Under the pieces are notes generated by a model. The model had not been told where the DNA came from. It did no database searches and worked only from the letters and a program-made list of their open reading frames with translations. The translations under genes and the position numbers were made by a program. From Phytoactinopolyspora mesophila (GTDB lineage: Bacteria; Actinomycetota; Actinomycetes; Jiangellales; Jiangellaceae): a stretch of 64,000 bases of DNA. How positions within the stretch are numbered: the stretch's first letter is position 1; each line of letters opens with the position of its first letter. Shown piece after piece: positions 35,606 through 62,303 of this stretch. The stretch spans positions 242,901 to 306,900 of the forward strand of contig NZ_WLZY01000005.1 of NCBI RefSeq assembly GCF_010122465.1, written 5' to 3'.

Positions 35606-35654
35606 TCATTGTGCTCGTTTAGGGGCTATGGCACCTAAACGAGCACAATGATCA
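35601..35654. repeat. Palindromic repeat (family B), copy 2, containing the stop codon of the upstream gene
   Basis: The copy shares the 23-bp left arm with copy 1 and has loop ggctatggca instead of ggctatagca. The right arm ends gatcatg rather than gatcaag. The TGA at 35603-35605 within cttgatca is the stop codon of the AbiEi-like gene. It is a probable transcription terminator. Confidence 0.9.
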
Positions 35655-36141
35655 TGAGCCGGGTTGCGTATCTCACCCAAACGTCGCCCTATCGACGCGT
35701 CAGAAAGTGGCAAGATGTCCGTCTTGTCTGGGTGAGGGGGTGTCAAGGGCTCGTGGCTGTGAACGGTGGGGGTCAGTTGTTTGCGGCCGCGAGCCCGGGC
35801 GGGCCGGAGTTCCGGCTGTGCGCTCGGGGCGAGCCAAAGGGTATGAATCGGAAAAATCTGGTCGGCCGCGTGCTGATCCACTCGTTTGGCGACTCTTGTG
35901 TGATCAGAAGGCGATGAACCACTCGGCCGGGTAGCCGGTCGAGAAGGGATCGCGCTTCTGCACGGGGGATCATGCTCCGTTTCCGTCAGCCCCCTGGCGA
36001 CACTTATGTCTGCCATGACGGAGACGGAGCATTCCGCCGAACAAGACGCGACAAGCCTCTGGGACGTGCAGCCGGGGTGATGTCGGCCGTCCTGGTGAGC
36101 GAGTTTCGTGGCCGCGACTGACCTGTGACCCGGGGGCGGGT
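35655..36141. other. Gene-poor stretch with an inverted repeat and possible gene remnant
   Basis: No convincing gene is present in these 487 nt; the open frames lack actinobacterial third-position bias. An inverted repeat with 17-bp arms (35972-35988 and 36016-36032, one mismatch) encloses 27 nt. On the minus strand a stop-bounded 19-codon piece near 35917-35976 reads QKRDPFSTGYPAEWFIAF and ends in TGA, which resembles the tail of a lost gene. The stretch may be decayed mobile DNA. Confidence 0.4.
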
Positions 36142-38622
36142 TTACGCGGGCGGCAAGAGGCCGAGCGTGCGGGCGATGCTGACAGCGGAGTGCCGGTCGG
36201 CGACGCCGAGCTTCCGGTACACGGCCCGGGTGATCGTTTTCAGGGTGTTGCTCGAGACATACAACCGCTTGGCGGTGCTCGCGAGGGTGTCGGAACCAGC
36301 GAGTGCGGTCAGGATCTCCGTCTCGCGTTCCGACAGCCCCGGCATTCCGTCTACGTTGGCGCGCCGTAACGCTACGATCTCCGCCACGAGACCCGCCGAC
36401 CGCCCGGAGTTCGGAGGGGTCAGGACACCTGTGGCGATGGCATGGCTGAGCTGCGGCAGCAACAGGATGGGTCTGCGTGCCCCGGTGCGTTCGATCGACG
36501 CCAGCAGCCGCCGGAACGCGGGCAGAGCGTCGTGGCCCCGGCGTAGCGCGCATTCGGCCGCGATCGCGTGTAGATCAGCACGGATGGTCATCGAGAGGTC
36601 AGGTTTCTGTTCGGCTGCGGCGACCTCCAACTCTGCCTGGTCAACCGCGTCGGCAACGAGCTGGGCGCGAGCCCGCGTGATAGCCAGATACGCCTCGTGG
36701 CCAGACGGAGCCTCGACGCCGTCGAGTTCGGCCAGGGCGGCTTTCGGGTCGTTGTGAACAAGGTACGTCTGGGCGCGGGCAATAGCGGTGAGGAAGCGGT
36801 TGTACGGCAACTTGTTGGTGGCGAACTCCGAGCCGCAGAGCAGCAATGCATGCTCGGCGGACACGGGGTCGGCGAGCAGCATTCCGAGAGCCGACCAAGC
36901 GGCGGCGAGGCGCGCCGCGGGCGGCTCGACATCGAATTCGAGCCGATCTTGTGCCCGGTGGAGCAGAGCGGTCGCCCGGTGGCCACGGCCGTACTCGAGG
37001 TCGAGCAGACCCTGGGTGAGGTAGAGATGGTCGGTGAACTGCAGGTGGGACCACCCTGAACGCCGGATGAGCGCGGTGGCCGACTCGGTCATTCGTGCCG
37101 CGACGGGAAGATCTCCGTTCTGAAAGGCGGTATACGCCAGAAGCACCTCACTGGCGGCCAGGTACCAATGTGCCTGGTTGTGGTGAGCGAGGGTTCTGGC
37201 CAGCCGAAAGGCTGCCTCTGCGGAGCTCAAGTCTCCTTCAGCAAGCCGCGAGGCGCCCACTTGGTGGTTGAAGAATGCCAGCCGGGTGGCGCATTCGCGT
37301 CGTTGCTCCTCCGTGGCGGCGTCGATGAACGTCCGGCCGGAGCGCTCGACCTCTCGAGCCCGGTCGATCGCGCCTTCGAAGCGTGCCAGCATGATCTGGA
37401 GAGAGTGCAGTGTGAGCAGGCTGGCATTGAGTGAGCTGCGGTCAACCACTGCTTCCGCCTGGGTGAGCCGGAGTTTGAACGTGGCGAGGTCGGCCGGCTG
37501 GAGTAGCGCGGAGATGGCAGCGACCAGCAGCAGGGCGGGATGGTTGACGAGATCGTCGTCGGCCAGCGATTTCACCGAAGGAAGCAGGGCCCAGGACGCG
37601 TCAGTGCCGAGTTGATTCTCCTGCTCGCGTAGCACGTCGGAGACGACATCCTGAGAGGCCTCCACGAGGTAGGGCAGCGCTTCGGATGTCCGGTTGCCCT
37701 GGACGAGAGTGCGAACCGCCCGATCGACGAGTTCGACTCTCCGGGAGGGATGTTTGATGCCCAACTCAGTGAGCAGGTTCTGCCGTACCGGCTGCGGCAT
37801 TCGCCAGTAGTGTGCGCTCGTTGCGCGGATCACCCACCCGGCGGCGGACCAGTGTTCGATGAGCAGCGCCGCGTCCGGTTCGGTGTAATCGGTCAGGTCA
37901 GCGAGAGTCGCCGCCAGGAGGTGGGCGTCGAACTGGGGCAACGCGGCGGTCATGGTGAGCTTTGCGAGTTCGTCGCCGGGGACGGTCGCCAACACTTCTT
38001 CGCGGACGAATTGATTGATGAGCTCGTGAAGGCGGCGATGCATGACTGGTTCGTCCGGCCGGCGCAAGCGCAGGGCCGCATCGACCATCGCGGGCCAGCC
38101 GTCTGTCGCCAGATGCAGGTCGGCGGCTTCGTCCGCACTGATCTGGATTTTGCGTTTGGACGCGAGCTGAGTGACCTCGTTGCTGGTCAAGAGCAGGTCT
38201 TCGGTGGAGATGATGTGAGCGCTGCCATCCAGCAACATGCCGCTGGAGACCGCAGTGAGCGGGTTCCGGGTAGCCACGACGACCCGTGGACCCCGGCTGT
38301 GAACGTCGAGAATCGCGGGGGTCGTGACGCCGCCGATATCGTCGATCAGGATCAGATCAGGTAGCTCATCGTCCGGATAGTTCGTGGGCCTGGCGTAAGC
38401 GGCCAGTTGATCGGTTGAGGTGATGCGGAGTACCTGTGAGCGCCCCGCCGTTTGAGCCACCTGATCGAGGAGAACGGACTTGCCGAGACCCGCGGGACCT
38501 TGCACGACGGTCAGGGGCGCGGCGCGTGAGCCAATCACCGCATCGACCAGCCGGCGGCGCATCACGTCAGTGCGTGACGTCGTTCCTTTGCCGGCCTCAC
38601 CACCGGACTCGCGCCGCGCCAT
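36142..38622 (-). CDS. MalT-like LuxR-family regulator with AAA-type ATPase domain
   Basis: The protein has 826 residues from ATG 38620-38622, behind gggagg; a longer frame to 38673 lacks this ribosome binding site. The Walker A motif QGPAGLGKSVLLD lies at about residues 41-53 and a Walker B-like LILIDDIGG near 105. A winged-helix linker and long helical TPR-like repeats (about 330-750) follow. The C-terminal LuxR HTH (GLSERETEILTALAG, then STAKRLYVSSNTLKTITRAVYRKL) closes the protein. MalT-type (STAND) regulators bind a ligand, use ATP and then oligomerise to activate transcription. The ligand and targets are unknown; the neighbouring surface locus is a candidate. Confidence 0.88.
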   Translation of the reverse strand: MARRESGGEAGKGTTSRTDVMRRRLVDAVIGSRAAPLTVVQGPAGLGKSVLLDQVAQTAGRSQVLRITSTDQLAAYARPTNYPDDELPDLILIDDIGGVTTPAILDVHSRGPRVVVATRNPLTAVSSGMLLDGSAHIISTEDLLLTSNEVTQLASKRKIQISADEAADLHLATDGWPAMVDAALRLRRPDEPVMHRRLHELINQFVREEVLATVPGDELAKLTMTAALPQFDAHLLAATLADLTDYTEPDAALLIEHWSAAGWVIRATSAHYWRMPQPVRQNLLTELGIKHPSRRVELVDRAVRTLVQGNRTSEALPYLVEASQDVVSDVLREQENQLGTDASWALLPSVKSLADDDLVNHPALLLVAAISALLQPADLATFKLRLTQAEAVVDRSSLNASLLTLHSLQIMLARFEGAIDRAREVERSGRTFIDAATEEQRRECATRLAFFNHQVGASRLAEGDLSSAEAAFRLARTLAHHNQAHWYLAASEVLLAYTAFQNGDLPVAARMTESATALIRRSGWSHLQFTDHLYLTQGLLDLEYGRGHRATALLHRAQDRLEFDVEPPAARLAAAWSALGMLLADPVSAEHALLLCGSEFATNKLPYNRFLTAIARAQTYLVHNDPKAALAELDGVEAPSGHEAYLAITRARAQLVADAVDQAELEVAAAEQKPDLSMTIRADLHAIAAECALRRGHDALPAFRRLLASIERTGARRPILLLPQLSHAIATGVLTPPNSGRSAGLVAEIVALRRANVDGMPGLSERETEILTALAGSDTLASTAKRLYVSSNTLKTITRAVYRKLGVADRHSAVSIARTLGLLPPA

Positions 38623-38775
38623 ATCGCCCTCCCCCGGGTGAACAGCCCCTTTGCGCACGGAACTGCACGCCAAACCAGGAATCCCGGCTTGTTAAAGGCC
38701 CACCCTGCGCGTTCATCCTACCTTTCGGCCGGTTACTGAGAACGCGGGCCATTGTCCAAAAACCGCAGCGTAGGC

Positions 38776-39579
38776 CTATAGGTCGGAGAAAAGAGTGCCC
38801 GCGAAATCGATGTCGGGAGCCTCTGTGAAGTCGACCACAGTCCACTCGCCACCACCACCGAGGCGCAATTCCATCCGCTGCAGAACACCGGCGTCGTCGA
38901 TCCAGTAGCGCACGGTGGCGTCGCTGCCGTCGCCGGCAGAATCGGAGGCCGCGGCGTCGTACGGCTCGTCGGAGGTGGGGCCGAGCAGGACATCCACCGC
39001 GACACCGTCCAGCTCGTCAGAGCGCAGCCACCGAGCATCGGTCTGCTGCAGCAGAAGTGGGTTGTCGGGTCGGTCGTTGCTGGTGGAGAGCACGATCGCC
39101 AGCACGGTATGCAGCCGGGACGCCTCCGGCGCGAGTGCGGAGGACGTCCAGGCATCGTTGCCGGCCGTGCGGTTCGGGGGTGGCAGAGGGGGAAGGTCAC
39201 CGGTGACTGCGCCCTCGTGGGAGCTGACGGTCTCCTTGGTCCACGCGAGGAGCAGTGGCGCGTCGTCGCCGGAGCCGCCGTGCAGGTTCGCGTATCCGAG
39301 CTTGGCCGTGAAATCCACCCAGCCGTTGAGCGTGTACTCCTGCCCGGAGTCGCGGACGCTGAACTGGACGGCGCGCGTGCCCGCGTCGAAGTTCGAGAAG
39401 CGCATCATCGCCAGGCGCTGGGCCTCGTCGGTGGTCAAGGGTCGCGGCGAAGGATGCTCGGTGACATCCGCGGCGGTGCCGTGCGACGTCTCGTCCGGCT
39501 CGGCAGAGCTGGAGCAACCCAGCACCGCGGCTACCGCGGTGCAGGCCAGCCAGATCGTCACGGTTCGGCTGCCCTTCAC
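38776..39579 (-). CDS. Putative lipoprotein
   Basis: The 267-residue protein starts at GTG 39577-39579, overlapping the upstream gene by 4 bp. The lipoprotein signal is TVTIWLACTAVAAVLGCSSS with lipidated C22. The mature part begins with a Ser/Glu/Asp-rich spacer. A beta-rich domain follows, with an antiparallel pattern (FDAGTRAVQFSVRDSGQEYTLNG, GWVDFTAKLGYANL) like lipid-carrier LppX/LprG-type folds, but I cannot assign a family. It is translationally coupled to the beta-helix lipoprotein gene and faces away from the giant surface protein gene. Confidence 0.75.
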   Translation of the reverse strand: MKGSRTVTIWLACTAVAAVLGCSSSAEPDETSHGTAADVTEHPSPRPLTTDEAQRLAMMRFSNFDAGTRAVQFSVRDSGQEYTLNGWVDFTAKLGYANLHGGSGDDAPLLLAWTKETVSSHEGAVTGDLPPLPPPNRTAGNDAWTSSALAPEASRLHTVLAIVLSTSNDRPDNPLLLQQTDARWLRSDELDGVAVDVLLGPTSDEPYDAAASDSAGDGSDATVRYWIDDAGVLQRMELRLGGGGEWTVVDFTEAPDIDFAGTLFSDL

Positions 39580-40925
39580 GCGGTACCTGCGCGATCTGAC
39601 AGGAACGTGTCATCGGGCACCGGATAGTCGGATTCCGACGGCATGTGGACGGCGTCCGGCAGCGGTTCGGGCAGAGTCTCGACATCGGACAGGGCCGGTT
39701 GATCCGGCGGCGGCGGAACCCGAAGGAAGCTCATCCCGGCCGGCTCGGAGACCGACGGCACGGTGCCTGCCTCATCCCGGCTGTTTCCTTCCGGGCAACT
39801 CGCGGCCAGGAGGCTTTCGGGTGACGCGGTCGCGGCCGTGTTGTCCTCGAAGCAGTTGCCTTCCGATGGGGCGCGGGAGGCCGAAACGTCGGCGACGTCG
39901 ATTCCGTTCCCGGTGAGCACATTTTCTGCGAAGCTGTTGTCCAGCGCGGAAATGTCTTCGGTATTGCTCAGCAGAATGCCCGCCACTGGATTGCCGTCGA
40001 TCCGGTTGGCGACGATTTCGTTTCGCTGGCCGCCGCCGATGGACAAGCCGAGGCCGAAGCCGCCATGGGCATGGGCGGGGGAGTCGTCGCTCGTATTGTC
40101 GCTGATCAGATTTCCGACGACGACGTTCTCCCGCTGCGGGGTGAACGCTTCCTGGTAGCTGGACAACAGCGTCAGCCCGATCCGGTTTCCGCTGAACCGG
40201 TTGCCGGCGATCATCAGCGAGTCAGAGGCGTTGGCGTTTTCGAACCCGACGGCGTTGCGCTCGGCGACGTTCGAGGCGACCAGGATGTCGCATTCCTCAC
40301 ACTGCCCGACGTAGAACCCGGAGTCGGCCGAGCCGGAGGCGTAGGAGTTGGTGATCGAGCCGTGCCGGGCATTGAACGCGTAGATTCCGTACAGCCCGTT
40401 GTTGTGGGCGGTGACGTGGTCGATGGAGAACCGCTGTACCGGCGGGAACTCGGCAGGATCCAGCTCGGTGTAGCCGGGGCCGCCATGCGCCAGCGGACCG
40501 TTCTCGTCGTGCATCCCGGTGACGAGCACTCCGTAGAACAGAGTCGAGTGCACGGTCAGGTTCTCGATCCGGACTCCATCGGCCGACGCGAACACGCCGA
40601 ACGAGCGGGTGCCCTCACCGTCGATGATGACGCCGTTGCGATCGGTGCCGCGCAGCGTCACGTCCGGTTTGTCGATGGTGACCTCTTCGGCGTACGTACC
40701 GGGGCCGACGAGCACCATTCCTCCACTCGTCACCAGCTCCACACCGGCAGCGATGGTGTCGGCGTCCTCGGGTACGCGAACCAGTTGAGCGCCGGGCTCA
40801 TCCGGCTGCGGCTCGGCGACATTGCCGGAGTTGTCCGACCCACACCCCGCGGCCAGCAACGCGAGCGCAGCGATCACCGTGATACCCGGCCGGCGCCCCC
40901 GCGCGGCCGCTCCGCACATCCCCAT
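39576..40925 (-). CDS. Lipoprotein with right-handed parallel beta-helix (NosD/PbH1-type)
   Basis: The 449-residue protein has a lipoprotein signal ending LLAAGC (C28). The early VLVGPGTYAEEVTIDKPDVTLRG is typical of the first turns of a pectate-lyase-like beta-helix. PbH1 repeats continue to about residue 360 (GVRIENLTVHSTLFYGVLV, HNNGLYGIYAFNARHGSITN, FENANASDSLMIAGNRFSGN). A Pro/Asp-rich tail ends the protein. The fold often binds or cleaves polysaccharides, but no catalytic set is evident. The gene is the first of a two-gene lipoprotein operon and divergent from the giant LADTG protein, with a CRP-type site between. Confidence 0.82.
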   Translation of the reverse strand: MGMCGAAARGRRPGITVIAALALLAAGCGSDNSGNVAEPQPDEPGAQLVRVPEDADTIAAGVELVTSGGMVLVGPGTYAEEVTIDKPDVTLRGTDRNGVIIDGEGTRSFGVFASADGVRIENLTVHSTLFYGVLVTGMHDENGPLAHGGPGYTELDPAEFPPVQRFSIDHVTAHNNGLYGIYAFNARHGSITNSYASGSADSGFYVGQCEECDILVASNVAERNAVGFENANASDSLMIAGNRFSGNRIGLTLLSSYQEAFTPQRENVVVGNLISDNTSDDSPAHAHGGFGLGLSIGGGQRNEIVANRIDGNPVAGILLSNTEDISALDNSFAENVLTGNGIDVADVSASRAPSEGNCFEDNTAATASPESLLAASCPEGNSRDEAGTVPSVSEPAGMSFLRVPPPPDQPALSDVETLPEPLPDAVHMPSESDYPVPDDTFLSDRAGTA

Positions 40926-41002
40926 GGTCGAGAGTTAAGCACACTTATCGCGCTGCGTCGTGCCAGCACAAGGGGCTGCCGCCGTCTTGAAACCTCAAAA
41001 AA

Positions 41003-41018
41003 TGTGATCTAAGTCACG
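41003..41018. promoter_or_regulatory. CRP-type binding site upstream of the LADTG surface protein gene
   Basis: TGTGATCTAAGTCACG matches the CRP family consensus TGTGAnnTnnnTCACA at all but the last base and includes the T at position 8 favoured by mycobacterial CRP. It lies between the divergent beta-helix lipoprotein gene (78 nt away) and the surface protein start (135 nt). A similar site precedes the second giant gene. Confidence 0.65.
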
Positions 41019-41152
41019 TCGCGTGCGAATCTGTTCGCCGGATGACTCTTGGCGCTTGGACGCATAGATGTATCGACCGCTGGACGGTGTTCGTCGTGCG
41101 GACATTTGGGGGGCGACTTCTGTCGCGTAATGAAAGAGATAGGGGCGATTCA

Positions 41153-44100
41153 GTGAGACGACAACGTCAGCGAGCGTTGGGCCAGGGTGGTGATGGCCGT
41201 CCGGTTCCGGAGCGCTGGTCCGCAGCGCGAAGGGGGACCGCCGGCCTGAGCGCGCTTGGCCTCCTCGGTTCGATGCTCGTGGGCATCGCTGCGGCACCGG
41301 CGGCGACGGCCGCGGAGGGTGACGAGATCACCGGCACGATCTGGCAGGACTACGACTCCAACGGCATGTTCGACTCGTATGAGTCGGGACTTGCCGGGAT
41401 CGAGGTTTATGCGTACGACGGCGCCGGTAACGTCGCCGGTCCAGTGGTCACTGACGCAGACGGTGGGTACGCACTGCCGGTGACCAGTGACGCCGATCAG
41501 TGGCGGGTCGAGGCGAACGTGCCGGATACGCCGGAGTGGGCAGAGTGGCGAGACACCGTGGTGGGTCGGGGCGACGGCACCGCGAACGGCACCACAGTGC
41601 AGTTCGTCGACGTCAGCGACGGCGACGTGGACGGCGTGGATTTCTCCTTCCACGTGCCCACAGCATTCGTCGATGACAACCCTCAGGTGTATATCCCGAT
41701 CGTCCATTTCGGCACGAGCGACGGTCCGAACGCCGACGCTGCCGCCTCGGGCGTCATCTGGTGGGACGCGGAAAGCCCCAACCAGGACAGCCCGGTGCCA
41801 CAGACTGGACGGGTTCCGTTCAGCGAGGTGGGGGCCACCAACGGCTCGGCTATGATCCGCGCGGACGAGGTGGGTGGGCTGCCCACCGTGTTCACGGCCG
41901 CGTACCTGCGCCGGCACTCGGCGTTTGGGCCGGGTGGCATCGGTGCGATCTATCGCGTGACACCGGACGGCGCGGATTGGTCTGCCCCGAACGCCTCGGC
42001 AGAGGTGTACGTGGATCTTGTCGCCGAGGGTATTGACCTCGGTGGGCCCGACCCGGACGCACCCGTCGGGAACCCAGACGGGTTCCGTCCGAACGTGACC
42101 TCGGAGAACCCCGACTACCTCTGGACCCGAGACGCGCAGGCGTGGAACAAGGTTGGCCGGGCCGGGATCGGCGAGATCGCGATGAGCCCGGACGAGCGTT
42201 ATCTGTTCGCCGTGAATCTCCACAACCGCTCGCTGGTTCGGATCGACACCGGTGGTGACCCGAGCGGTGCGCCGGTCGCGGTGGATGAGTTCTTCTTCGA
42301 TGACGTCTTCACCGGGGACATCCGGCCTTACGGTGTTGGAGCGGACGCGCTGACCGGAACCATGTACCTCAGCGCGACCGACACCGCAGAGACCACGCGG
42401 TCGGTCAGCGACCTCAATGGCTATGTGTACAGCTTCGACGCGGACGCGCCGGGCTCCTTGACGACAGTGCTGGACTTCCCACTCGACTTCGCACGTAGCG
42501 GCTTCATGCCGACGTTCGAGCCGTGGGCGACGCAGAGTACCCACTACCACCAACCGGGTGGGAACGGTTCAGCTGCCCGGCTCAACCAGCCCGTGGTGGC
42601 CGGTGTCAAGGTGCTGCACGGCGACCTCATTATCCCCATCCGGGACCTCACCGGTGACGTCATGGGGGCGACGACGTTCCTGTCGGGTGACCCGGACGAC
42701 GGCGACAACCGCACCACGTCGGTCCGGTCCGAAGGTGACGTCTTCATCGCCGCCCCTAACGGTGATGGGACCTTCACCCTGGAGAACAACGGTGTACACA
42801 AGGGTGTCACCGGACAGGGCGCCCAGCTCGGCCACATGGGCCCTGGCGGCCTGCGGTACTTCAACACCGGCTTCGGTGTGGCTAACCAGGACAACGAGTC
42901 GACGGGTTCGATCGTGATCAACCCGAGCCGCGACGACGGTGTCATGACCACCGGGGTCCACGTTGTGCACGGCGGCCTCCAGGAGGGTACATACCGCCTC
43001 TATCAGGAGACCGGAGCTGCCTACTCGGGCAACGGTGCAATGATCCGGCGGACCGTCGGCAACATGGTCACGGCGAAGGGCAATGGCCTCGGGTCGGCGT
43101 CCGTGCTGGCGTCGGCGGCCCCGATCGAGATCGGCAACTACGTCTGGTACGACGTCAACAACGACGGTATCCAGGATCCGGACGAGGACCCGGTGCAAGG
43201 CGCCACGGTCAACCTCTACGAGGTGGCCGAAGACGGTACCCGCACGCTGGTGAACACCACCGTCACCGACGAGAAGGGCGAGTACTACTTCTCTTCGTTC
43301 GACGAGGACTACCAGCTACGCACGAACACCGACTACGAGGTTGGAATCGACAACCCGGACGACTACGCCGAGGGCGGTCCGCTGTACCGGTGGTACCCGA
43401 CCGTGCCACACACCGGTGACGAGGACAGTGTGAACCCGGAGGAGAACGACTCGAACGGGATCGTTCCCGAAGGTTCCACCGATCCGTTCCCGTTCGCGCT
43501 GGTCACTACCGGCGGGCCGGGCGAGAACGACCACTCGATCGATTTCGGGTACTCGCAGATCAGCTACGAGTTCGACAAGCGGATGGTGGAGGGCCCGATC
43601 CAGTCGCCGGACAAGGACGGCACCTGGACCATCACCTACGAGCTGGTCGCCGAGAACACCGGGATGATCGACGGCTCGTACCTGCTCACCGATGACCTGA
43701 CCGGTTATGGCGAGGGTATCGAGATCGTCGGCACCGAGGTGGTGTCCGGACCGCCGGAGGCCGACGGGCTGCTGAACGCGGACTGGGATGGTATCGACGA
43801 CCAGCGGGTGGTCACCGACTACGTCGACATCGACGCGGAGTCGACCGTGGACAACGGCACCGAGCACATCTATACGCTGACTGTGACGGTCGCCTTGAAC
43901 GCGGATCCGGAGACGGGTGAGGCGCTGGTCGACCTGGACCAGCTGGCCTGTGTGCCGGATGCCGGACCGGGTGCTGAGAACACGACCGGACTGTTCAACG
44001 TCGCCACCATGTCGCCGGAGAACTATGACGACCTGGTGGACGCCGAGTGCAGCGAACTGCCGCTGGTCACCCTCGACAAAACCGTCGAGGTCGAGCCGTA

Positions 44101-46600
44101 CGTCGTCGACCGGGAGAACCTGCCCGGCGTCTGGGAGATTGTCTACGGTCTGACCGTCACCAACGAGACCGACGTGCCGACGGAGTACGACCTGGAAGAC
44201 CGGCTGCGCTTCGGCAGCGGTATCGACATCATCGACGGTTCCGTCGTCGCCGAGAACACGGATCCGGGCGACATCACCACCCGGCCGGAATTCGACGGGC
44301 TGACCGACACGCTCATCGTCGAAGATGTGCCGATCGACCGTGGCGAATCCCATCAGTACACCGTGGCGGTCCGGTTCACCATCGACCTGCCGCATCCACC
44401 GGAAGGCCCCGACCCGTCCGATTGCACACTCGTCGATGGTGAAGAAGACGGCACCGGCCTGTACAACGACGCCAACTCGTCGTTCAACGGCTACCCCGAC
44501 TTCGACGACGAGTGCCGTGAGGTCGGCCAGCCGTCCCACGAGAAGACACTGATCTCGGCCAACCCGATCGGCAACGGCCAGTGGGAGGTTGTCTACGGCA
44601 TCGAGGTGTTCAACAAGGGCGTCGCCGCCACCTGGTATGACCTCGACGACGAGCTGCGCTTCACCGATCAGGTGGACATCGTCTCCGCCGACGTCACGTC
44701 GGCTCCGGACGGGGTGGTCCTGTACGACCCAGCCTGGGATGGTGAGGATCAGCTGCGGATCGCCGAAGAGGTGCCGCTGCTGGGCACCGCCGACGACGGC
44801 TACGCACCACACGAGTACGTGCTGACCGTCATCGCCGATGTGCCGTTGTCGTTCGAGCTGGACGCGGACGGCAACGACCCGACCAGCTGCTCCGCGGCGG
44901 TTGGTGATCCGTCGGTGAACACCGCGTTCAACAACGGCTCGACGCTGACCGACGAAGCTGGCCTGGTCGAGGAGGACGACGCATGCGCTGAGCTGCCGTC
45001 GTTCACCATCGACAAGACCATCAGCGACGGACCGGTGAGCAACGGTGACGGCACCTGGGCCATCACCTACGACATCGTCGCGACGAACGACGGCTCGGCC
45101 GACGGCGAATACACCGTCACCGATCAGCTTCGTTACGGCGACGGCATCGTGGTGGAAGAGTCCGAGGTGATCACCGCGCCGGACGTGGCCGACGTGCTGG
45201 ACACGTGGACCGGTCGCGGGCCCGAGGGCGACCCGGTCAACGTCATCGCTGTGGACGTGCCGCTGGAGGCCGGTGGTGAACACCTCTATCAGGTGGAGGT
45301 GGTCTTCTCTCTCGACCAGGACACCCTGACCGAGGAGTCGATGACCTGCCCGCCGCCGGGTTCGGGTGAGTACGGCGGCCTGGCCAACAGCACCGGCCTG
45401 GAGCACAACGACCTCACCGACACCGACGAGGTGTGTGTGTCGCTCGGCCAGCCGGACCTGGAGAAGAACCTGGTCTCGGCACAGCCGATCGGCGCAGGCC
45501 AGTGGGAGGTGCACTACGACATCGTGGTGCGCAACCTGCTGCCGGGTGCGACGGTCTACGACCTCGAGGATGAACTGCTCTACGGCGAGGGTGTCGAGGT
45601 GGCCGAGGCTGCCATCGTCTCCGCGCCGGACGGTGTCGCGGTCCGCGACGACTGGGATGGTGTCGACCAGCTGGTCATCGCCGAGGACGTCGCACTGGGC
45701 GGCATGAACGACGACGGCTACGCGCCGCACGTATATACGGTGCGGGTCGTGGCCGACGTGCCGCCGTCGTTCGCGATCGATGAGGACGGCAACTCGCAGG
45801 CGCTGTGTCAGGACGAGAAGGGCGGCAACTTCGAGAACGGCGGTCTGAACAACGTCGCCACGCTGTACACGGAAGGCGGCGACGAACTCGTCGACACCGA
45901 CTGTGCTGACCTGCCGTCGATCGAGCTGGAAAAGACCGTCGCCGGCGGGCCGGAGCGGATCAACAACGACCGGCACGTGATCACCTACGAGCTCGAGGTG
46001 ACCAACGACGGCGGTGCCAGCGGGGAGTACGTGCTGTACGACCAGTTCCGGTTCGGCGAGGGCATCGAGATCCTCGACGTGCGGGCGTCCAACACCGCCC
46101 CGGGTGACATCGAGGTGCTGGACACGTTCACCGGACAAGGCGACGAGCCGAACGCGGCGGAGAACGCCTTGACCGAGGAGGTGTCTATCGGTGCCGGTGC
46201 GACCCACACGTACGAAGTGGGTGTGCTGTTCACGCTGGACGGCGACACGCTCACGGTGGAGTCCGCGCAGTGTGCGGACGAGCCTGGCGACGGCACCCGA
46301 TCGGGTCTGCTCAATGTGGGTCTGCTTGACCACAACGGGCACGAGCTCGACGCCGACGCATGCGAGCCGGTCGAGCCGGAGCAGCCGGGTGACCCGGATG
46401 ACCCGGACGCTCCGGGCGATCCGGACAGCCCCGACGATCCAGGTGATGACCTGGCCGACACCGGCTCGACCGTGTCGCTGTGGTTGCTGGCGGCCGGACT
46501 GGTTCTGGTGCTGGGCGGTGTGACCACCGCTGGTGCGGCGCGTCGTCGCACCCGCATGGCAAACACGGAACAGAGCGTTAGGATCGACGACCTGTTCTGA
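41153..46600 (+). CDS. Giant cell-wall-anchored surface protein with SdrD-B and alternating repeat domains, LADTG sorting signal
   Basis: The 1815-residue protein starts at GTG 41153 behind agggg; the frame is open further left. The signal peptide ends near IAAAPAATAAEG. Order: an SdrD-B-like domain (GTIWQDYDSNGMFDSYESGLAG), a long secreted beta-propeller-like region with WW/DE-rich strands (about 41690-43070), and a second SdrD-B-like domain (IGNYVWYDVNNDGIQDPDED). Six conserved-residue-strand repeats (DUF11-like) of 150-165 residues each follow, then an acidic Asp/Pro spacer and the sorting signal LADTG, a hydrophobic helix and an RRR tail. LAxTG is the motif of class E sortases. It is probably an adhesin or wall-structural protein. 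No sortase gene is in the window. Confidence 0.88.
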   Translation: MRRQRQRALGQGGDGRPVPERWSAARRGTAGLSALGLLGSMLVGIAAAPAATAAEGDEITGTIWQDYDSNGMFDSYESGLAGIEVYAYDGAGNVAGPVVTDADGGYALPVTSDADQWRVEANVPDTPEWAEWRDTVVGRGDGTANGTTVQFVDVSDGDVDGVDFSFHVPTAFVDDNPQVYIPIVHFGTSDGPNADAAASGVIWWDAESPNQDSPVPQTGRVPFSEVGATNGSAMIRADEVGGLPTVFTAAYLRRHSAFGPGGIGAIYRVTPDGADWSAPNASAEVYVDLVAEGIDLGGPDPDAPVGNPDGFRPNVTSENPDYLWTRDAQAWNKVGRAGIGEIAMSPDERYLFAVNLHNRSLVRIDTGGDPSGAPVAVDEFFFDDVFTGDIRPYGVGADALTGTMYLSATDTAETTRSVSDLNGYVYSFDADAPGSLTTVLDFPLDFARSGFMPTFEPWATQSTHYHQPGGNGSAARLNQPVVAGVKVLHGDLIIPIRDLTGDVMGATTFLSGDPDDGDNRTTSVRSEGDVFIAAPNGDGTFTLENNGVHKGVTGQGAQLGHMGPGGLRYFNTGFGVANQDNESTGSIVINPSRDDGVMTTGVHVVHGGLQEGTYRLYQETGAAYSGNGAMIRRTVGNMVTAKGNGLGSASVLASAAPIEIGNYVWYDVNNDGIQDPDEDPVQGATVNLYEVAEDGTRTLVNTTVTDEKGEYYFSSFDEDYQLRTNTDYEVGIDNPDDYAEGGPLYRWYPTVPHTGDEDSVNPEENDSNGIVPEGSTDPFPFALVTTGGPGENDHSIDFGYSQISYEFDKRMVEGPIQSPDKDGTWTITYELVAENTGMIDGSYLLTDDLTGYGEGIEIVGTEVVSGPPEADGLLNADWDGIDDQRVVTDYVDIDAESTVDNGTEHIYTLTVTVALNADPETGEALVDLDQLACVPDAGPGAENTTGLFNVATMSPENYDDLVDAECSELPLVTLDKTVEVEPYVVDRENLPGVWEIVYGLTVTNETDVPTEYDLEDRLRFGSGIDIIDGSVVAENTDPGDITTRPEFDGLTDTLIVEDVPIDRGESHQYTVAVRFTIDLPHPPEGPDPSDCTLVDGEEDGTGLYNDANSSFNGYPDFDDECREVGQPSHEKTLISANPIGNGQWEVVYGIEVFNKGVAATWYDLDDELRFTDQVDIVSADVTSAPDGVVLYDPAWDGEDQLRIAEEVPLLGTADDGYAPHEYVLTVIADVPLSFELDADGNDPTSCSAAVGDPSVNTAFNNGSTLTDEAGLVEEDDACAELPSFTIDKTISDGPVSNGDGTWAITYDIVATNDGSADGEYTVTDQLRYGDGIVVEESEVITAPDVADVLDTWTGRGPEGDPVNVIAVDVPLEAGGEHLYQVEVVFSLDQDTLTEESMTCPPPGSGEYGGLANSTGLEHNDLTDTDEVCVSLGQPDLEKNLVSAQPIGAGQWEVHYDIVVRNLLPGATVYDLEDELLYGEGVEVAEAAIVSAPDGVAVRDDWDGVDQLVIAEDVALGGMNDDGYAPHVYTVRVVADVPPSFAIDEDGNSQALCQDEKGGNFENGGLNNVATLYTEGGDELVDTDCADLPSIELEKTVAGGPERINNDRHVITYELEVTNDGGASGEYVLYDQFRFGEGIEILDVRASNTAPGDIEVLDTFTGQGDEPNAAENALTEEVSIGAGATHTYEVGVLFTLDGDTLTVESAQCADEPGDGTRSGLLNVGLLDHNGHELDADACEPVEPEQPGDPDDPDAPGDPDSPDDPGDDLADTGSTVSLWLLAAGLVLVLGGVTTAGAARRRTRMANTEQSVRIDDLF
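43571..46370 (+). repeat. Six tandem protein repeats in the LADTG surface protein
   Basis: Repeats start at 43571, 44072, 44537, 45008, 45458 and 45926, with spacing of about 450-500 nt. Each opens with an (L/I/F)(D/E)K motif and W-x-I/V-x-Y, and ends with two cysteines about 30-40 residues apart. Repeats 3 and 5 are close relatives (both GQWEV, DDGYAPH), and repeats 4 and 6 another pair, so a two-repeat module appears to have been duplicated. Confidence 0.85.
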
Positions 46601-46609
46601 TTCACCCTG

Positions 46610-46653
46610 CATGGGGTGCGTGCCCGGCTGTTCCAGCGGGCACGCACCCCATG
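46610..46653. terminator. Hairpin terminator after the LADTG surface protein gene
   Basis: Perfect 17-bp arms (46610-46626 catggggtgcgtgcccg and 46637-46653) surround a 10-nt loop, starting 9 nt after the stop codon. There is no T-run, as is common for actinobacterial hairpin terminators. Confidence 0.8.
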
Positions 46654-46696
46654 TGCCGTACTACTGCTACGTAGAAAAGCTCAGAAGGGGAACGAC

Positions 46697-47836
46697 GTGG
46701 TGACACGACCGTCGCGGCGGCGGCTGCTCGCCGGGCTGGCCATCGGCGCGGGCGGCATCACCACGGGTGGTTTGCTCGGAAGGAGCACCGCCGGGGTGGC
46801 CGCGGAACCGTCGCCGGCGTCGTCCGAGACTGAAGGGCCACCCGGTGGGCGGCCTGTTCCCGCGATTGGGGAGCACCAGGCGGGCATCGCTCTGCCCACC
46901 GATCCGCAGCCGTACTCGCTGACCGTGGTCTCCGACCTGGCGGCTGCCGACATGTCCGTGCTGGCGCCCGTCGGGGAACGGCTGTTGGATTTCCTGGACG
47001 ACGACGCACACGACAGTGGCGACCTGACGGTGGCGGTTGGTGTCGGTCCGCGGGTGGTGTCCTCGGTCGACGATGCTTTGCCCGGCGCCGAAGCCCTGCC
47101 CGAATTCGATTCCGACGCCGGCATGGCCGCGGAACGCGTCGGCGGTGACCTCCTGCTGATCGCCAGCGCCAGCGAACCCGCCGTGCTTGGGCCCGCAGTC
47201 GAAGCCCTGCTGGATGCGCTGCCGGACTGTACCCAGCGCTGGCGGCAGTTCGGGTTCCGTGGTCCCGGGCGCGACGGCATTGTCCGCAACCCGTTCGGCT
47301 TCCACGACGGCATCATCGTCCCGCGCGGCGACGATGAGCTGGCCGAACACGTTTGGCTGCGCGACGACCCGCGAGTGGCCGGCGGCACCATCGCCGTCGT
47401 GCGACGGCTGCGCACCGACGTGGCGGGCTTCAGCCACCTCCCGGTTGAGGAACAGGAGGCGCTGGTGGGCAGGCGCAAGCGGGATGGTGCGCCGTTGTCG
47501 GGCGGGTCTGCCCGGGACGAGGTGAGCCTGACGGCGAAGACCGCCGACGGGCAGTACTTGACGCCTGTGAGCTCGCACGCGCGGGCCGCGCATCCGGCCC
47601 TGACCGGCAGCGCGTTGATGCTGCGCCGGGGCTACGCCTATGCCGAGGGCGACGAGTCCGGCCTGATGTTCGTGTGTTTCCAGCGTGACCTGCGCACTTT
47701 CGTCGTCACCCAGCAGCGGCTCGACGAGCAGGACCGGATGATGGAGTACGTCACCACAACAGCCAGCGGCACGTTCCTGATGCTGCCGGGCTTCGACCGG
47801 GACCGCCCGCTCGGTTCGACGCTGCTCACCGCCTGA
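46697..47836 (+). CDS. Tat-exported DyP-type peroxidase
   Basis: The 379-residue protein starts at GTG 46697 (GTG 46700 is equally possible; aagggg is 6-9 nt upstream). A twin-arginine signal (SRRRLLAGLAIGAGGITTGG) precedes an Ala/Glu linker. The dye-decolourising peroxidase core carries the GxxDG heme-pocket motif (NPFGFHDGII), the proximal histidine region SSHARAAHP and the C-terminal FVCFQRDLRTFVVTQQRL. DyP enzymes use H2O2 to oxidise bulky aromatic substrates and include EfeB-type iron-uptake members. No EfeU or EfeO gene is adjacent here. Placement between two giant wall proteins allows the idea that it oxidises or crosslinks surface components, an inference only. Confidence 0.88.
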   Translation: MVTRPSRRRLLAGLAIGAGGITTGGLLGRSTAGVAAEPSPASSETEGPPGGRPVPAIGEHQAGIALPTDPQPYSLTVVSDLAAADMSVLAPVGERLLDFLDDDAHDSGDLTVAVGVGPRVVSSVDDALPGAEALPEFDSDAGMAAERVGGDLLLIASASEPAVLGPAVEALLDALPDCTQRWRQFGFRGPGRDGIVRNPFGFHDGIIVPRGDDELAEHVWLRDDPRVAGGTIAVVRRLRTDVAGFSHLPVEEQEALVGRRKRDGAPLSGGSARDEVSLTAKTADGQYLTPVSSHARAAHPALTGSALMLRRGYAYAEGDESGLMFVCFQRDLRTFVVTQQRLDEQDRMMEYVTTTASGTFLMLPGFDRDRPLGSTLLTA

Positions 47837-47856
47837 GCAGCCGCCGCGTCACAGTT

Positions 47857-47900
47857 GCGTCCTGCAATCCGAGGCCTCTCGCGCTCACTTTGCAGGACGC
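47857..47900. repeat. Family D hairpin (GTCCTGCAA arms), copy 1
   Basis: The 11-bp arms gcgtcctgcaa (47857-47867) and ttgcaggacgc (47890-47900) enclose 22 nt. A second copy with the same arms, same spacing and one arm mismatch is at 62754-62797. It lies 20 nt after the DyP gene and may terminate it. Confidence 0.8.
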
Positions 47901-47999
47901 TGTCATTTGCGATCGTTTCTGCGCTATCGAGCGCCAACATTGTCAGTCGTCATCCATATGCTCCTTGGATCGCAGCAGTTGCGTGAGTTTGGAGGCAGG

Positions 48000-48866
48000 A
48001 TGGTCAAGTCGTCTCACGAGGCCCTGCACCGGATCTTTCAAGACGACTCCACGTTGTTCGCGCGAGCGTTCCAGAAGCTGCTCGGTGTCGAGTTCCCGGA
48101 GCCGCGGACCATCTCGGTGATCAACAGTGATCTCACTGAAATGGAGCCGGTCGAGCGTCGCGCGGATACGGTGCTTCTCGTTGAGACGGGTGATGGTGAA
48201 CATCTGCTGATCATCGAGTCGCAGACCCGGGATGACGACGACAAGCGTCGATCGTGGCCGTACTACATTACGTTTCTGCACAACAAGTACAAAGTCCCGG
48301 TGACGCTGCTCGTGGTGTGTTCGAGCGAGGCGACGGCTGCGTGGGCACGGGCGCCGATCCCGATCGGGTTGACTGAGCAGCCGTCGTTGGTTGCCTATCC
48401 GCTGGTCCTGGGGCCTGACAACGTCCCGGTCATCCTCGAAGTGGAAGAGGCTGCCGAAGACGTGGTCCTGGCGGTGTTCTCTGCGCTCACCCACAAGGGA
48501 GCAGCGGAGGCAGGCAAGATCCTCGAGGCGCTCGCCAGAGCCTTGAGCACTATCGATCCGCAATCAGCCGCCTACCTGGCCGAATTCACCGAGGTAGGAT
48601 TGGCCGGAGCGGCCGCATGCGACATGTGGAGGACGTTGATGACGACCATGACCTACCCCTATGTATCCCAACTGCGCTCCCAAGGCCGTCAAGAAGGCCG
48701 GGTTGAGGGTGAGGCGCGTTTCGTACTGCGGGTGCTCGATCGGCGTGGGGTCGAGGTGTCCGAGGATGCGCGGCAGCGCATCATGTCGTGCAACGACCAC
48801 GCGACGCTCGAGTTGTGGCTTGACCGAGCGCTCACCGCGGAATCGGTCGAGGACCTCTTCGCCTAG
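48000..48866 (+). CDS. PD-(D/E)XK-like / Rpn-type hypothetical protein
   Basis: The protein has 288 residues from ATG 48000, with ggagg 4 nt upstream. It starts MVKSSHEALHRIFQDDSTLF. The segment RRADTVLLVETGDGEHLLIIESQT fits the core of the PD-(D/E)XK-type fold of Rpn/transposase-associated nucleases (D, then E with Q in place of K: ESQT). The C-terminal half is helical and ends near DRALTAESVEDLFA. Many actinobacteria carry several paralogues of this type, often as lone genes. The nuclease activity is uncertain because the lysine of the motif is replaced. It sits alone between the DyP gene and the small membrane protein. Confidence 0.72.
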   Translation: MVKSSHEALHRIFQDDSTLFARAFQKLLGVEFPEPRTISVINSDLTEMEPVERRADTVLLVETGDGEHLLIIESQTRDDDDKRRSWPYYITFLHNKYKVPVTLLVVCSSEATAAWARAPIPIGLTEQPSLVAYPLVLGPDNVPVILEVEEAAEDVVLAVFSALTHKGAAEAGKILEALARALSTIDPQSAAYLAEFTEVGLAGAAACDMWRTLMTTMTYPYVSQLRSQGRQEGRVEGEARFVLRVLDRRGVEVSEDARQRIMSCNDHATLELWLDRALTAESVEDLFA

Positions 48867-49100
48867 CCCGGTTGTGCGCCCTTGACGCACTGTAGGCATA
48901 CGTGCTCTCCACAATTTATTTCGCTTGACCTGATTTGATCAGGCATTCTCTCCGCTCGTCATGCAGAGTGGATTTCGGCCAGGCCGCAGTCTCGGTCGCA
49001 CCGTGCGCGGTACCAAGCGGTACTCACGCTGCACGGTGTGTCCAACCGGGGTGAGACCGCGGTCTGGCCGAGGGGCAGTCGAGGGGACCGGGGGACAGCC

Positions 49101-49352
49101 ATGCTCTGCGTGCGCATGCCGTCGCCTTGGCGATCCATCCTCCTGGCCACTGTGGTGCTAGTGGTTCTGCTCGCCGCCGTACCATCCGCGAGCGCCACGC
49201 TGTCCGTCCCGGCCGAGCTCGTGATCGTCGACCCCGATGACGCGCCCGCTGACCCGCGGGTGCCGGCACACGTCTTCGGAGTGGGAATTCTCGTGCTGGT
49301 TGTCGCTGGTGGCTGGGCGATCTACTCGAAGAGGCGCGATCGCGATCTTTGA
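49101..49352 (+). CDS. Small secreted-type membrane protein, unknown function
   Basis: The 83-residue protein has ggggga 4 nt before ATG 49101; a second ATG six codons later also fits. A hydrophobic signal-like segment (SILLATVVLVVLLAAVPSASA) is followed by about 25 extracellular residues rich in Asp and Pro, then a transmembrane helix (VFGVGILVLVVAGGWAIY) and a basic tail KRRDRDL. The layout mimics a sortase substrate stripped of its LPxTG. No homologue is recalled. It lies between the surface loci and may share their regulation. Confidence 0.55.
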   Translation: MLCVRMPSPWRSILLATVVLVVLLAAVPSASATLSVPAELVIVDPDDAPADPRVPAHVFGVGILVLVVAGGWAIYSKRRDRDL

Positions 49353-49401
49353 CAGCCGTACGGTCCCGGGAGAGACGCGGATGCCACTCCCACTCGCAGC
49401 G

Positions 49402-49417
49402 TGTGACGTACGTCACA
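49402..49417. promoter_or_regulatory. CRP-type binding site upstream of the LPDTG surface protein gene
   Basis: TGTGACGTACGTCACA is a perfect 16-bp palindrome and a perfect match to TGTGAnnTnnnTCACA. It lies 180 nt before ATG 49598, after the small membrane protein gene. Downstream, gactctt (49449) is found at 39 nt from the site centre; a similar gactctt lies 34 nt from the first site. Confidence 0.7.
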
Positions 49418-49597
49418 AAACATGTTCGTGCGACCAAAGCCTCTTAGTGACTCTTAGGCGGACGAGGGTGCCTATACGTTCACCTCGTCGCAAGGCGGAC
49501 ATAGCTGAGCGGCTCAGGCGGACTCGGACACCTTGGGGGGCGTTGTGCTGGACCTCTTGTGGGGCCAGGAGTGTACCGAGGTAAGGGAGACCTGGAC

Positions 49598-52500
49598 ATG
49601 ACAACGTCGATTAAGGGGAAGTACAGAGTCCCGCCCGGGGGGCGGCGCGGATTCTGGAAACGTATGGCCGCGGCTCGGCCGCGTAGAGCGGCCACAGGTA
49701 TGAAACGTTCCGCGGCGATCACACTCGCCATGGTGCTACTCGGGTCGCTGCTCGTCGGGATCGCACCGGCTTGGGCGGCGCAAGCGGCCAATGAGCCCAT
49801 CGAACCCGCCACGCTCACCGACGACGCGGACGACGTCGAGGCGACTGACCCTGAGACCGAGGGCTCTAACGCCGACGCGTCGGCCGAGGCGGCTGCCGAC
49901 GAGGGCGCCGGCGACGCGCCGGCCCCCGAGGAGGAAGCGGCCGAGGAGCCGGCTTCGGAGGACGAGGCGGTCGAGGAGTCGGCCGATGAGGAGGCTGCCG
50001 AAGAGGAAGCCTCGACGGAGAACTCCCGTGACGGTCCCGCCAACGAGGACGACACCAAGGGTCCCCGTAGTGTCGAGTCTGATTTCGAGATCGCGGCCGC
50101 AACTCCGGTGTATGAGATCAAAGGGCGCTGGGTCGACCAGCCGGACACGATTTCCCGGGGTAACCCGGTGGTGGGCGAATGGCGGATCAACGTCAACGAC
50201 GACGAGGAGCCGCCGAGCAACGACCCGGTGGACAACGTCACTGCGACGTTCACGGTGGACAAGGCGTTCTTCGACGAGATCCCGGACATGTGTCTTACCG
50301 ACGGTGTCGACCCGGCGTCGAGCCTCTCCGCCGACGGCACGGAGCTCACCTGTAACTTCGGCACGGTCAACATGGGCACCGCGATCGTGCTGCAGACCCC
50401 GGTGGTCGCGAACGGCATCACCGGCGAGGAAGTCGTGCTGGACGGCACGAGCCCCGGCGGCGAGACCGTCGAGCTCGACCCCATCCCGATCGACAACCCC
50501 TTTATTATGGATATCCACTACGGGACGAACACCGGATTCACTGGTAAGTGGAACGACGACTTCACTCACGTGGACGTTGACGTGCAGTGGTCGCTGCGGC
50601 TCGGAAACGGCTCGGACCCCGGCCCGGACGAGGTGACCTATCGGCTCACTGTCGCCGACTTGAATGGGGGCACCATCGAGCTGGGACCGCACCCGGTCTC
50701 GGGGGAGCTTGGGTGCTCGCCGTACGACCTCACCCAGCTGGCCGACGGGCATCCATGGTCCAGGTCCGACATTCCGCCGGAGCATCGACAGAACACCTCG
50801 TTCGTCGACGAGTGCATCCTCACCCCGGTTGCCGGCCAGCCCGGTGAGTTTGACCTGACGCTTCGGGGGATCAACTACGACCTGCTCAACGTGCCCACCC
50901 ACGACTCGACCAATCGCCTGTTGCCCCCCGAGTGGGACTACGTCGCCAGCGGCACGCTGTGGTTCCGGGTGCACACCACCGAAGCCGGTTCGATCACCCT
51001 CGAGTCCTCCGCACCGACGTACGAGGCGCCCACCGGGCAGGAGTACGACGACCCGGCCGACAACAACACCACCAACAAGGTGTACACGTTGCCGGGTAAC
51101 TGGTCTGCGTACTACCAGCGGAGCTACACCGGCTCGGGCGGGACCCCCTGGGACGACACGTACCGGGTGTCAGCCGGGACGACGGTGATGAACCGTATTA
51201 GCAGCCGCTGGTTTGCGGATGACGTTCCGCCGGACAGCGAGTACGGCAGCTGTCTTCCGTTCGACACCCGGTTCGTGACGCTCGAGGACCCCAGTACCAC
51301 CCGAGTTGTCGCGTCCAATGTGGCGGGGGGCCGGGACATCGACACGATCCCGGTGGAGTACTACGTGGGCAACGACCCGCGTCTGGACCCGAACAGCGGG
51401 CAGTACAATCCGCACCTGTTCAATTGCGGTGGCGATGCCGCCAACTGGATCACGACGCCACAGGACCCCTCGGCGATCAAGGCAGTGCGGATCCTCTACC
51501 CGCACCAGCAGTACGCCGACGAGAACGCCGAAACGATCCAGCTGTTTGCCTTCCCGACGATCAACGATGACGTGCCGGTGGGGCAGGACGTGTGGATGTT
51601 CGGCTCGACACTGCGCGACGGCGTGTGGGCCGTGCAGGAAGGCCCCAGGATCGAGACGCCTGGTGCCCGCTATCCGTACACGACCAGCTCGCGGGATATG
51701 CTGCGGATCATCGGAGCTGTGCCGTACATCGAGAAGGACTCGGCGCAGGCGACGGTGACGCCGGGCGTGCCGTCGGAGTTCACGTTGATGTACATGGCTA
51801 CCGGCGCGGGCGCGATCCCGGACACCGTGGACGGCTACGAGATCGTGGATACGCTGCCGTTGGGCATGACGTACGAGCCGGGTTCGGCTGATCCGGAGCC
51901 GGTGGTGACGACGGATGCTCAGGGTCGTCAGGTTTTGACATGGACGCTGGACGGCGTGGCGACGAACACGGAGAACACGCTCACGTACCAGGCAGTGGCG
52001 GATACCAGCATCGAGCCGGGTACGCAGCTGACGAACACGGCTGTGTCCAGCTACGATGGTGAGTCGTCGCGGGAGGTCACCGAGACGGTGACCACTACCA
52101 CCAACGGGTACACGATCATCTTGAAGACGGCGGATGTGGAGTACATCCCGAACCGTGAGGGTGATGGTGTGGGTACGGGTTCGTGGACGGTGGCGATCGA
52201 GTCGAATGACCCGATTGCGCAGGCGTTCACGGACACGATCGACATCCTTCCTTATAACGGTGACCAGCGGGGGACGTCGTTCAACGGAACGTACACGCTG
52301 GACGATGTGGTGCTGAACGACGGTGGGACGGTGTATTACACCGATGCGGACCCGGCCACGTTGTCTGACGACCCGGAGCATCCGGACAATGGTGCTCCGA
52401 ATGCGCCGTCGGCGTTGTGGACCACGGATCGTCCGGAGAACCCGACCGCTGTCCGGGTGATCGGTGGTGAGCTGCTGTCTGGTGGGACGTTCTCCTTCCA

Positions 52501-61573: not shown

Positions 61574-62134
61574 CTATGCCTCTTGCAGTTGAGCCAGATA
61601 GGCCGAGCGCAGTGCGCTGCGGGCGCGGGTGGCGAGACTTGACACCGCGTTCGCCGTCATGGACATCCGGGGGGCGAGTTCGGCAGGGGAGTAGCGGTCG
61701 ACCTCGATCAGCCAGAGCACCTGCTGCCATCGTTTCGGGAGGGTTTCCCATGCGGCGGCGACGACGTCAGCCTGCGGCGATTCGAACGCGACGGGTGCGA
61801 TGAGCCGCTCCCACAGGGTGTTGTCATCTGAACACATCGTCTGGCTTTGCGTCTTCGAGTAACGATAGGCGAGGCGTTTGACCGTGGCCATGACGTAGGC
61901 GCTGAAGGAGTCAGTCGGCCCGTGTCCGGACCGTACGGCCCGGAGAATGTGGTAAAAAGCTTCCTGTACGAGGTCGTCGGCCGCATAGGCGTCGCGAACA
62001 ATGCGATGTGCGGCTCGTCGTGCGTTTTGTGCAACGCTTTCGTACAAGACTTCGAAGGCGGCATCGTCACCGGTTCGAGCTTTGGTGAGCAATGCTGTTG
62101 GCTCGTCTGTGTCCCCCCACTGAATCACGATCAT
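61574..62134 (-). CDS. ECF-type RNA polymerase sigma factor
   Basis: The 186-residue protein has region 2 around residues 20-90 (HRIVRDAYAADDLVQEAFYH, ILRAV) and region 4 around 125-180 (LPKRWQQVLWLIEVDRYSPA, ELAPRMSMTANAVSSLATRA), the typical ECF two-domain layout. No cognate anti-sigma gene is adjacent in the window. ATG 62134 has no strong ribosome binding site; the GTG two codons later is an alternative. It lies downstream of the tad pilus genes on the same strand (169 nt after tadG) and may belong to the same regulatory region. ECF factors direct transcription of envelope or stress genes. Confidence 0.85.
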   Translation of the reverse strand: MIVIQWGDTDEPTALLTKARTGDDAAFEVLYESVAQNARRAAHRIVRDAYAADDLVQEAFYHILRAVRSGHGPTDSFSAYVMATVKRLAYRYSKTQSQTMCSDDNTLWERLIAPVAFESPQADVVAAAWETLPKRWQQVLWLIEVDRYSPAELAPRMSMTANAVSSLATRARSALRSAYLAQLQEA

Positions 62135-62303
62135 GACTTTGCCCGTCAGTCAGCGTTCGCCGCGTCGTGGAGACCCACATACGTAGTGGTCAGGAGCCAC
62201 GTACGTACCCTTGATTGCGACAATTCAGCCCGAATAGTCGCGCAGTTCTGGGCTTGGGGTATTTGCCCGGGGCTGACGTGGTCCGAAGATCGGCGTCGCT
62301 CCA

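Follow-up and report, generated by a model that had tools for sequence, protein, structure and literature searches.

A probable composite promoter of CRP box and ECF-type core before giant sortase-anchored protein genes of Phytoactinopolyspora mesophila

Two giant sortase-substrate proteins are encoded in the DNA analysed here, a 64,000-nt stretch of the Phytoactinopolyspora mesophila genome (contig NZ_WLZY01000005.1, positions 242,901 to 306,900; hereafter the window), which raises the question of what signal and which regulators decide when such proteins are made. A sequence-only reading had noticed two sequences that fit the CRP pattern, one perfect and one with a single mismatch, at 135-190 nt before the two genes, and both are found as described. 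From the box ends, the distances to the start codons are 135 nt (GTG 41153, gene 1) and 181 nt (ATG 49598, gene 2), and the first box does lie between gene 1 and a divergent lipoprotein gene.

41153..46600 (+): giant gene 1, SdrD_B-domain protein with LADTG sorting signal, with matches in 17 of 40 genomes searched
49598..54748 (+): giant gene 2, DUF11/DUF7927 protein with LPDTG sorting signal
39576..40925 (-): divergent beta-helix lipoprotein, apparently leaderless, with -10-like TTAACT at 40933-40938 and box 1 near -85
41003..41018 (+): CRP box 1, TGTGATCTAAGTCACG, pattern match with one mismatch to TGTGANNTNNNTCACA, kept in 15/15 gene-1 loci
49402..49417 (+): CRP box 2, TGTGACGTACGTCACA, perfect palindrome equal to its own reverse complement, kept in 5/6 gene-2 loci

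Such boxes could be chance matches to a common palindrome and have no function at all. The scan of the window with up to two mismatches returned 11 matches against 8.95 in shuffles, i.e., no excess, thus it is insufficient by itself to establish the boxes. Across the genome of 6.5 Mb, TGTGANNTNNNTCACA with at most one mismatch was matched at 57 places against 14 for the reversed control, and of 22 box places that were read out, five fall clearly within predicted genes and most others outside. The earlier reading had named a genome scan as a check on its two sites, and the outcome divides them: the perfect sequence occurs at only six places, one of which is box 2, while box 1 by itself belongs to a set of some 36 one-mismatch places, to which chance contributes substantially. 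Both boxes nevertheless rise above chance because of their conservation across species and their composite context. The genome falls within Jiangellaceae, and when gene 1 is compared its closest named relatives are Phytoactinopolyspora limicola, at 92% identity, P. alkaliphila and Jiangella species. Among loci with readable upstream DNA, our own included, the box was kept with two mismatches or fewer at every gene-1 locus and at all gene-2 loci but one. Conservation in the gene-1 orthologues covers the box, CGTGCTGA after it and the CTCTT stretch, whereas the 20 nt that precede the box differ at most positions. A chance origin was rejected on this conservation and on the composite counts given below, which leave it hardly any probability, and the boxes are very likely real and conserved.

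The genome encodes a protein that could bind them. There is one clear CRP homologue, the sole match far above the Pfam cut-off; its full-length alignment with M. tuberculosis CRP shows an identical recognition helix, GASRETVNKALADF, and a retained cAMP-pocket segment. Two class III cyclase genes above the cut-off, whose substrate may be ATP or GTP, are putative sources of cAMP. The mycobacterial CRP consensus TGTGA-N6-TCACA (PMC7739888) agrees with the boxes, in line with the preference claimed for them. A CRP input to both giant genes is therefore strongly supported, and we regard it as highly probable, since orthologous sites, matching recognition helix, cyclases and a third giant gene arranged alike all point to it.

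The GACTCTT that had been seen after each box is present at both genes (41044-41050 and 49449-49455), beginning 33.5 and 39.5 nt from the respective box centres, where 34-39 nt had been claimed. What had escaped recognition is its place within a promoter core, CGTGC-N19-CTC, which points to a second factor besides CRP.

41022..41027 (+): -35-like CGTGCG, 3 nt after box 1
41045..41050 (+): -10-like ACTCTT, inside GACTCTT, after a 17-bp spacer; predicted +1 at about 41058
49427..49432 (+): -35-like CGTGCG, 9 nt after box 2
49450..49455 (+): -10-like ACTCTT, inside GACTCTT, after a 17-bp spacer; predicted +1 at about 49462

The core consists of a -35 element CGTGC(T/G), a 17-bp spacer, a -10 element nCTCwT and, about 8 nt further on, a purine near +1. 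The distance from CGTGC to CTC is nearly constant across sites. Of 24 representative sites, which were chosen for the box plus CGTGC alone and not for CTC, 20 have the triplet CTC at precisely offset 24-26 from CGTGC, every other offset being used fewer than four times, and 21 have a purine at offset 36. This spacing is ordinary promoter geometry, and GACTCTT is therefore assigned to the -10 region. Reading GACTCTT as a -35 element, with a -10 (TATACG/TCTATC) 18 nt downstream, seemed possible in the gene-1 orthologues and was rejected, as that arrangement is unconserved in the paralogous sites. The gap between box and CGTGC is 3 nt in gene 1 and its orthologues and 9 nt, sometimes 10, in gene 2, its orthologues and most others; the two distances differ by 6 bp, which is no helical turn. 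Predicted CRP centres are thus near -47.5 at gene 1 and near -53.5 at gene 2, and neither position matches classical CRP class I or class II.

Joined into one pattern, GTGAN6TCAC-N3..12-CGTGC-N19-CTC, box and core occur three times in the genome, each time ahead of a gene for a giant sortase-anchored protein, namely gene 1, gene 2 and a third giant gene, with LPDTG (C2:673449). The composite has 44 matches in 22 Jiangellaceae genomes and 6 in 77 other genomes of the class, figures to be read with the knowledge that the pattern was partly learned from sites later found by it and that sites among orthologues share descent, so that the counts are not independent and binomial values exaggerate their independence. 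The reversed composite gave no match in the same 22 and 77 genomes. As a short search pattern, the composite would, if this reading is right, retrieve the surface regulon of a genome with almost no false matches. Relaxed to three mismatches it was overwhelmed by chance matches, and the core without the CRP box proved too short as a genome-wide search key, its matches being mostly coding or chance.

Several neighbours of the giant genes and of the composites were noted along the way. Directly downstream of gene 1, positions 46616-47836 of the window encode an apparently Tat-secreted Dyp-type peroxidase, and both P. limicola and genome G001 have similar genes next to their gene-1 orthologue. In G001 and G002, composites stand also before apparent UDP-GlcNAc 2-epimerase genes beside surface clusters (L110 and L112, judged by eye), which suggests that surface polysaccharide may be co-regulated with the giant proteins. 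Four Jiangella composites (L115:1052, L116:1025, L117:843 and L120:5584) face short open frames or no long gene, so small proteins or RNAs may also belong to the regulon.

The window encodes candidate regulators and holds a further copy of the core.

61577..62134 (-): ECF sigma factor that may read the CGTGC/CTC core
58676..61441 (+): large LuxR-family ATPase regulator (GerE and AAA_16), of a class that also adjoins giant genes in relatives
36142..38673 (-): MalT-like LuxR regulator
35869..35897 (+): CRP-less core copy CGTGCTGATCCACTCGTTTGGCGACTCTT, intergenic

Linkage to the giant genes is seen for a single family of ECF sigma factors. Two close members are present in our genome, one in the window and a paralogue just downstream of the third giant gene and facing it, and in many relatives an ECF gene is likewise divergent to or facing giant genes. 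The element CGTGC-N19-CTC occurs within 500 bp on the divergent strand at 13 of 22 ECF loci, compared with about 0.7 expected from its density in the window; at the ECF gene of the window, the 500 bp on the divergent side contain no CGTGC/CTC element. Some of these ECF-linked cores (on our own C2 and in G003 and G004) have no CRP box, so the core may function as a unit of its own. G005, G007, G008 and G011 lack close ECF members, and composites are missing there too, bar one poor match in G008; other families carry more distant ECF relatives. The region-4 segment NAVSSL..RAR.ALR is invariant across six members of the ECF family, as expected if all of them read one -35 element. No obvious anti-sigma gene was seen among the neighbour genes of the ECF and giant-gene loci, a survey that may miss short genes. 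The two core elements are separated by a fixed 17-bp spacer, within the length of about 16-18 bp usual for ECF promoters, and the common ECF motifs AAC (-35) and CGT (-10) are absent from the core, which has CGTGC and CTC instead. Taken together, it seems probable that the ECF sigma factor reads the CGTGC/CTC core.

The main competitor is a model in which CRP acts with a LuxR-type ATPase regulator resembling MalT, CGTGC being the site of that regulator and the promoter belonging to the housekeeping sigma factor. It owes this rank to the missing ECF motifs and to the LuxR-type ATPase genes, whose linkage to giant genes is roughly as consistent as that of the ECF genes: large ones adjoin composites at the third giant gene, in G001 and in G002, and the window itself holds one, together with the MalT-like regulator. 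At the maltose promoters of E. coli, CRP and MalT act together; the likeness lies in CRP working with a dedicated regulator and in the MalT-like LuxR regulators encoded nearby here, while the difference is that the second element here has the geometry of a -35/-10 promoter. This geometry is exact from hexamer to hexamer, with the 17-bp spacer and the purine near +1, no conserved housekeeping -10 appears further downstream across the representative sites, and CRP-less cores lie beside ECF genes, all of which speaks against the LuxR-type model and leaves it an unlikely one.

The CRP-less cores and sigma genes have further features. In the window, the core at 35869 opens a stretch (35869-36050) that continues as non-coding sequence with a predicted start at 35905, and RNA from this point forms two strong stems (z = -8.1), the first of which opens at the predicted first base. 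The folded RNA could be a structured small RNA, or simply terminator or repeat hairpins; an Rfam search of window positions 35000-64000 found no known structured RNA. A long near-perfect inverted repeat (TGATCATTGTGCTCGTTTAGG...CCTAAACGAGCACAATGATCA) lies at 35600-35660. On our own C2, a second CRP-less core (L107:15258-15440) is divergent to the second ECF gene and leads into sequence that appears to be non-coding and holds a long hairpin (z = -2.8). The regions upstream of ECF genes repeatedly hold sequences of the ACGTACGT type (window about 62140-62200, L108, L114, L116 and L118), through which the sigma genes might be controlled separately; ACGTACGT is also found inside the perfect box at 49402. 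As regards autoregulation of the ECF genes through the core, their upstream regions mostly have ACGTA-type sequences in common, and the core was seen on the divergent strand.

It could also be argued that CRP represses, or that it mainly regulates the divergent lipoprotein gene, with the giant genes controlled otherwise. In 14 of 15 gene-1 loci a TACACT-like -10 element (TTAACT in our genome, TACACT in most relatives) precedes the divergent start codon by 6-8 nt, so close that a leaderless message is suggested, and the box keeps a nearly constant distance from that start, 80-83 nt in 13 of 14 measurable loci and 70 nt in one. This arrangement is only suggestive of an influence that CRP could have on the lipoprotein gene too. 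As an account of the locus, repression or control of the lipoprotein gene is quite improbable, as gene 2, the third giant gene and other composites keep box and core without a divergent lipoprotein, and the box overlaps none of the -35, -10 and +1 positions; CRP would probably activate rather than repress. The window scan with up to two mismatches found no CRP box before the ECF gene, the LuxR-type regulator at 58676 or the MalT-like regulator gene, and a one-mismatch match at 38824 falls within a predicted gene. From the proposal that cAMP or CRP controls the whole surface locus, the input to the two giant genes thus survives, whereas control of the entire locus goes beyond the evidence.

We propose, with better than even confidence, that cAMP-CRP and an ECF sigma factor jointly drive the giant genes from a composite promoter. 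CRP of the M. tuberculosis CRP/GlxR type, loaded with cAMP, would bind the 16-bp box just upstream of the core, and RNA polymerase carrying an orphan ECF sigma factor (the product of 61577-62134 or its paralogue by the third giant gene) would read CGTGC, 17-bp spacer and nCTCwT. From its place near -47.5 or -53.5, CRP would help to recruit this polymerase, and the giant wall-anchored proteins would then be produced at high cAMP levels in the presence of the ECF sigma factor. The boxes, the core with its fixed spacing, their conservation and the linkage of the sigma genes are read directly from sequence, whereas binding by CRP, its activating role and the identity of the sigma factor at the core are inferred. 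Extended to the family, the reading is about evenly balanced: in Jiangellaceae, CRP may directly activate an orphan ECF holoenzyme at a class of promoters (box, 3 or 9-10 nt, CGTGC, 17-bp spacer, nCTCwT) serving mainly giant wall-anchored proteins, with CRP-less cores beside the sigma genes.

Known systems share parts of this design. Mycobacterial CRP and corynebacterial GlxR regulons have the same box consensus (PMC7739888) and, in M. tuberculosis CRP, the identical recognition helix, whereas the target genes here encode giant proteins anchored by sortase, and the box is coupled to a core unlike that of housekeeping promoters. The orphan ECF factor sigmaAntA of Streptomyces serves the antimycin genes, and in its mapped promoters the -10 element invariably contains CTC and the spacer measures 17-18 bp (PMC3933326); the -10 CTC and the spacer make the likeness, along with the orphan type, few dedicated targets and a non-canonical promoter (PMC3933326). 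Its targets are biosynthetic genes, and CRP is no part of the promoter as described in that source (PMC3933326). The C-terminal Ala-Ala of the sigmaAntA subfamily is absent from the two ECF proteins of our genome, which end in QLQEA and AYLTL. BldN has an adjacent anti-sigma factor (RsbN), and its target proteins are small, unlike the products of the giant genes here. With the chaplin and rodlin sheath of Streptomyces, SigmaBldN nevertheless offers a parallel, an ECF sigma factor reserved for surface proteins that include sortase-anchored ones (PMC4255298), and the review on this system does not mention Crp (PMC4255298). A limited literature search returned nothing direct on CRP with an ECF sigma factor in Actinobacteria or on Jiangella sortase systems.

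If the proposal is true, it would be an unusual case of a CRP-activated ECF promoter, and it would tie a nutrient or energy signal, cAMP, to the building of a surface from giant proteins in a little-studied family of filamentous actinobacteria. This suggests that, in a soil actinobacterium, a nutrient signal and a dedicated sigma factor may switch on the outer coat together.
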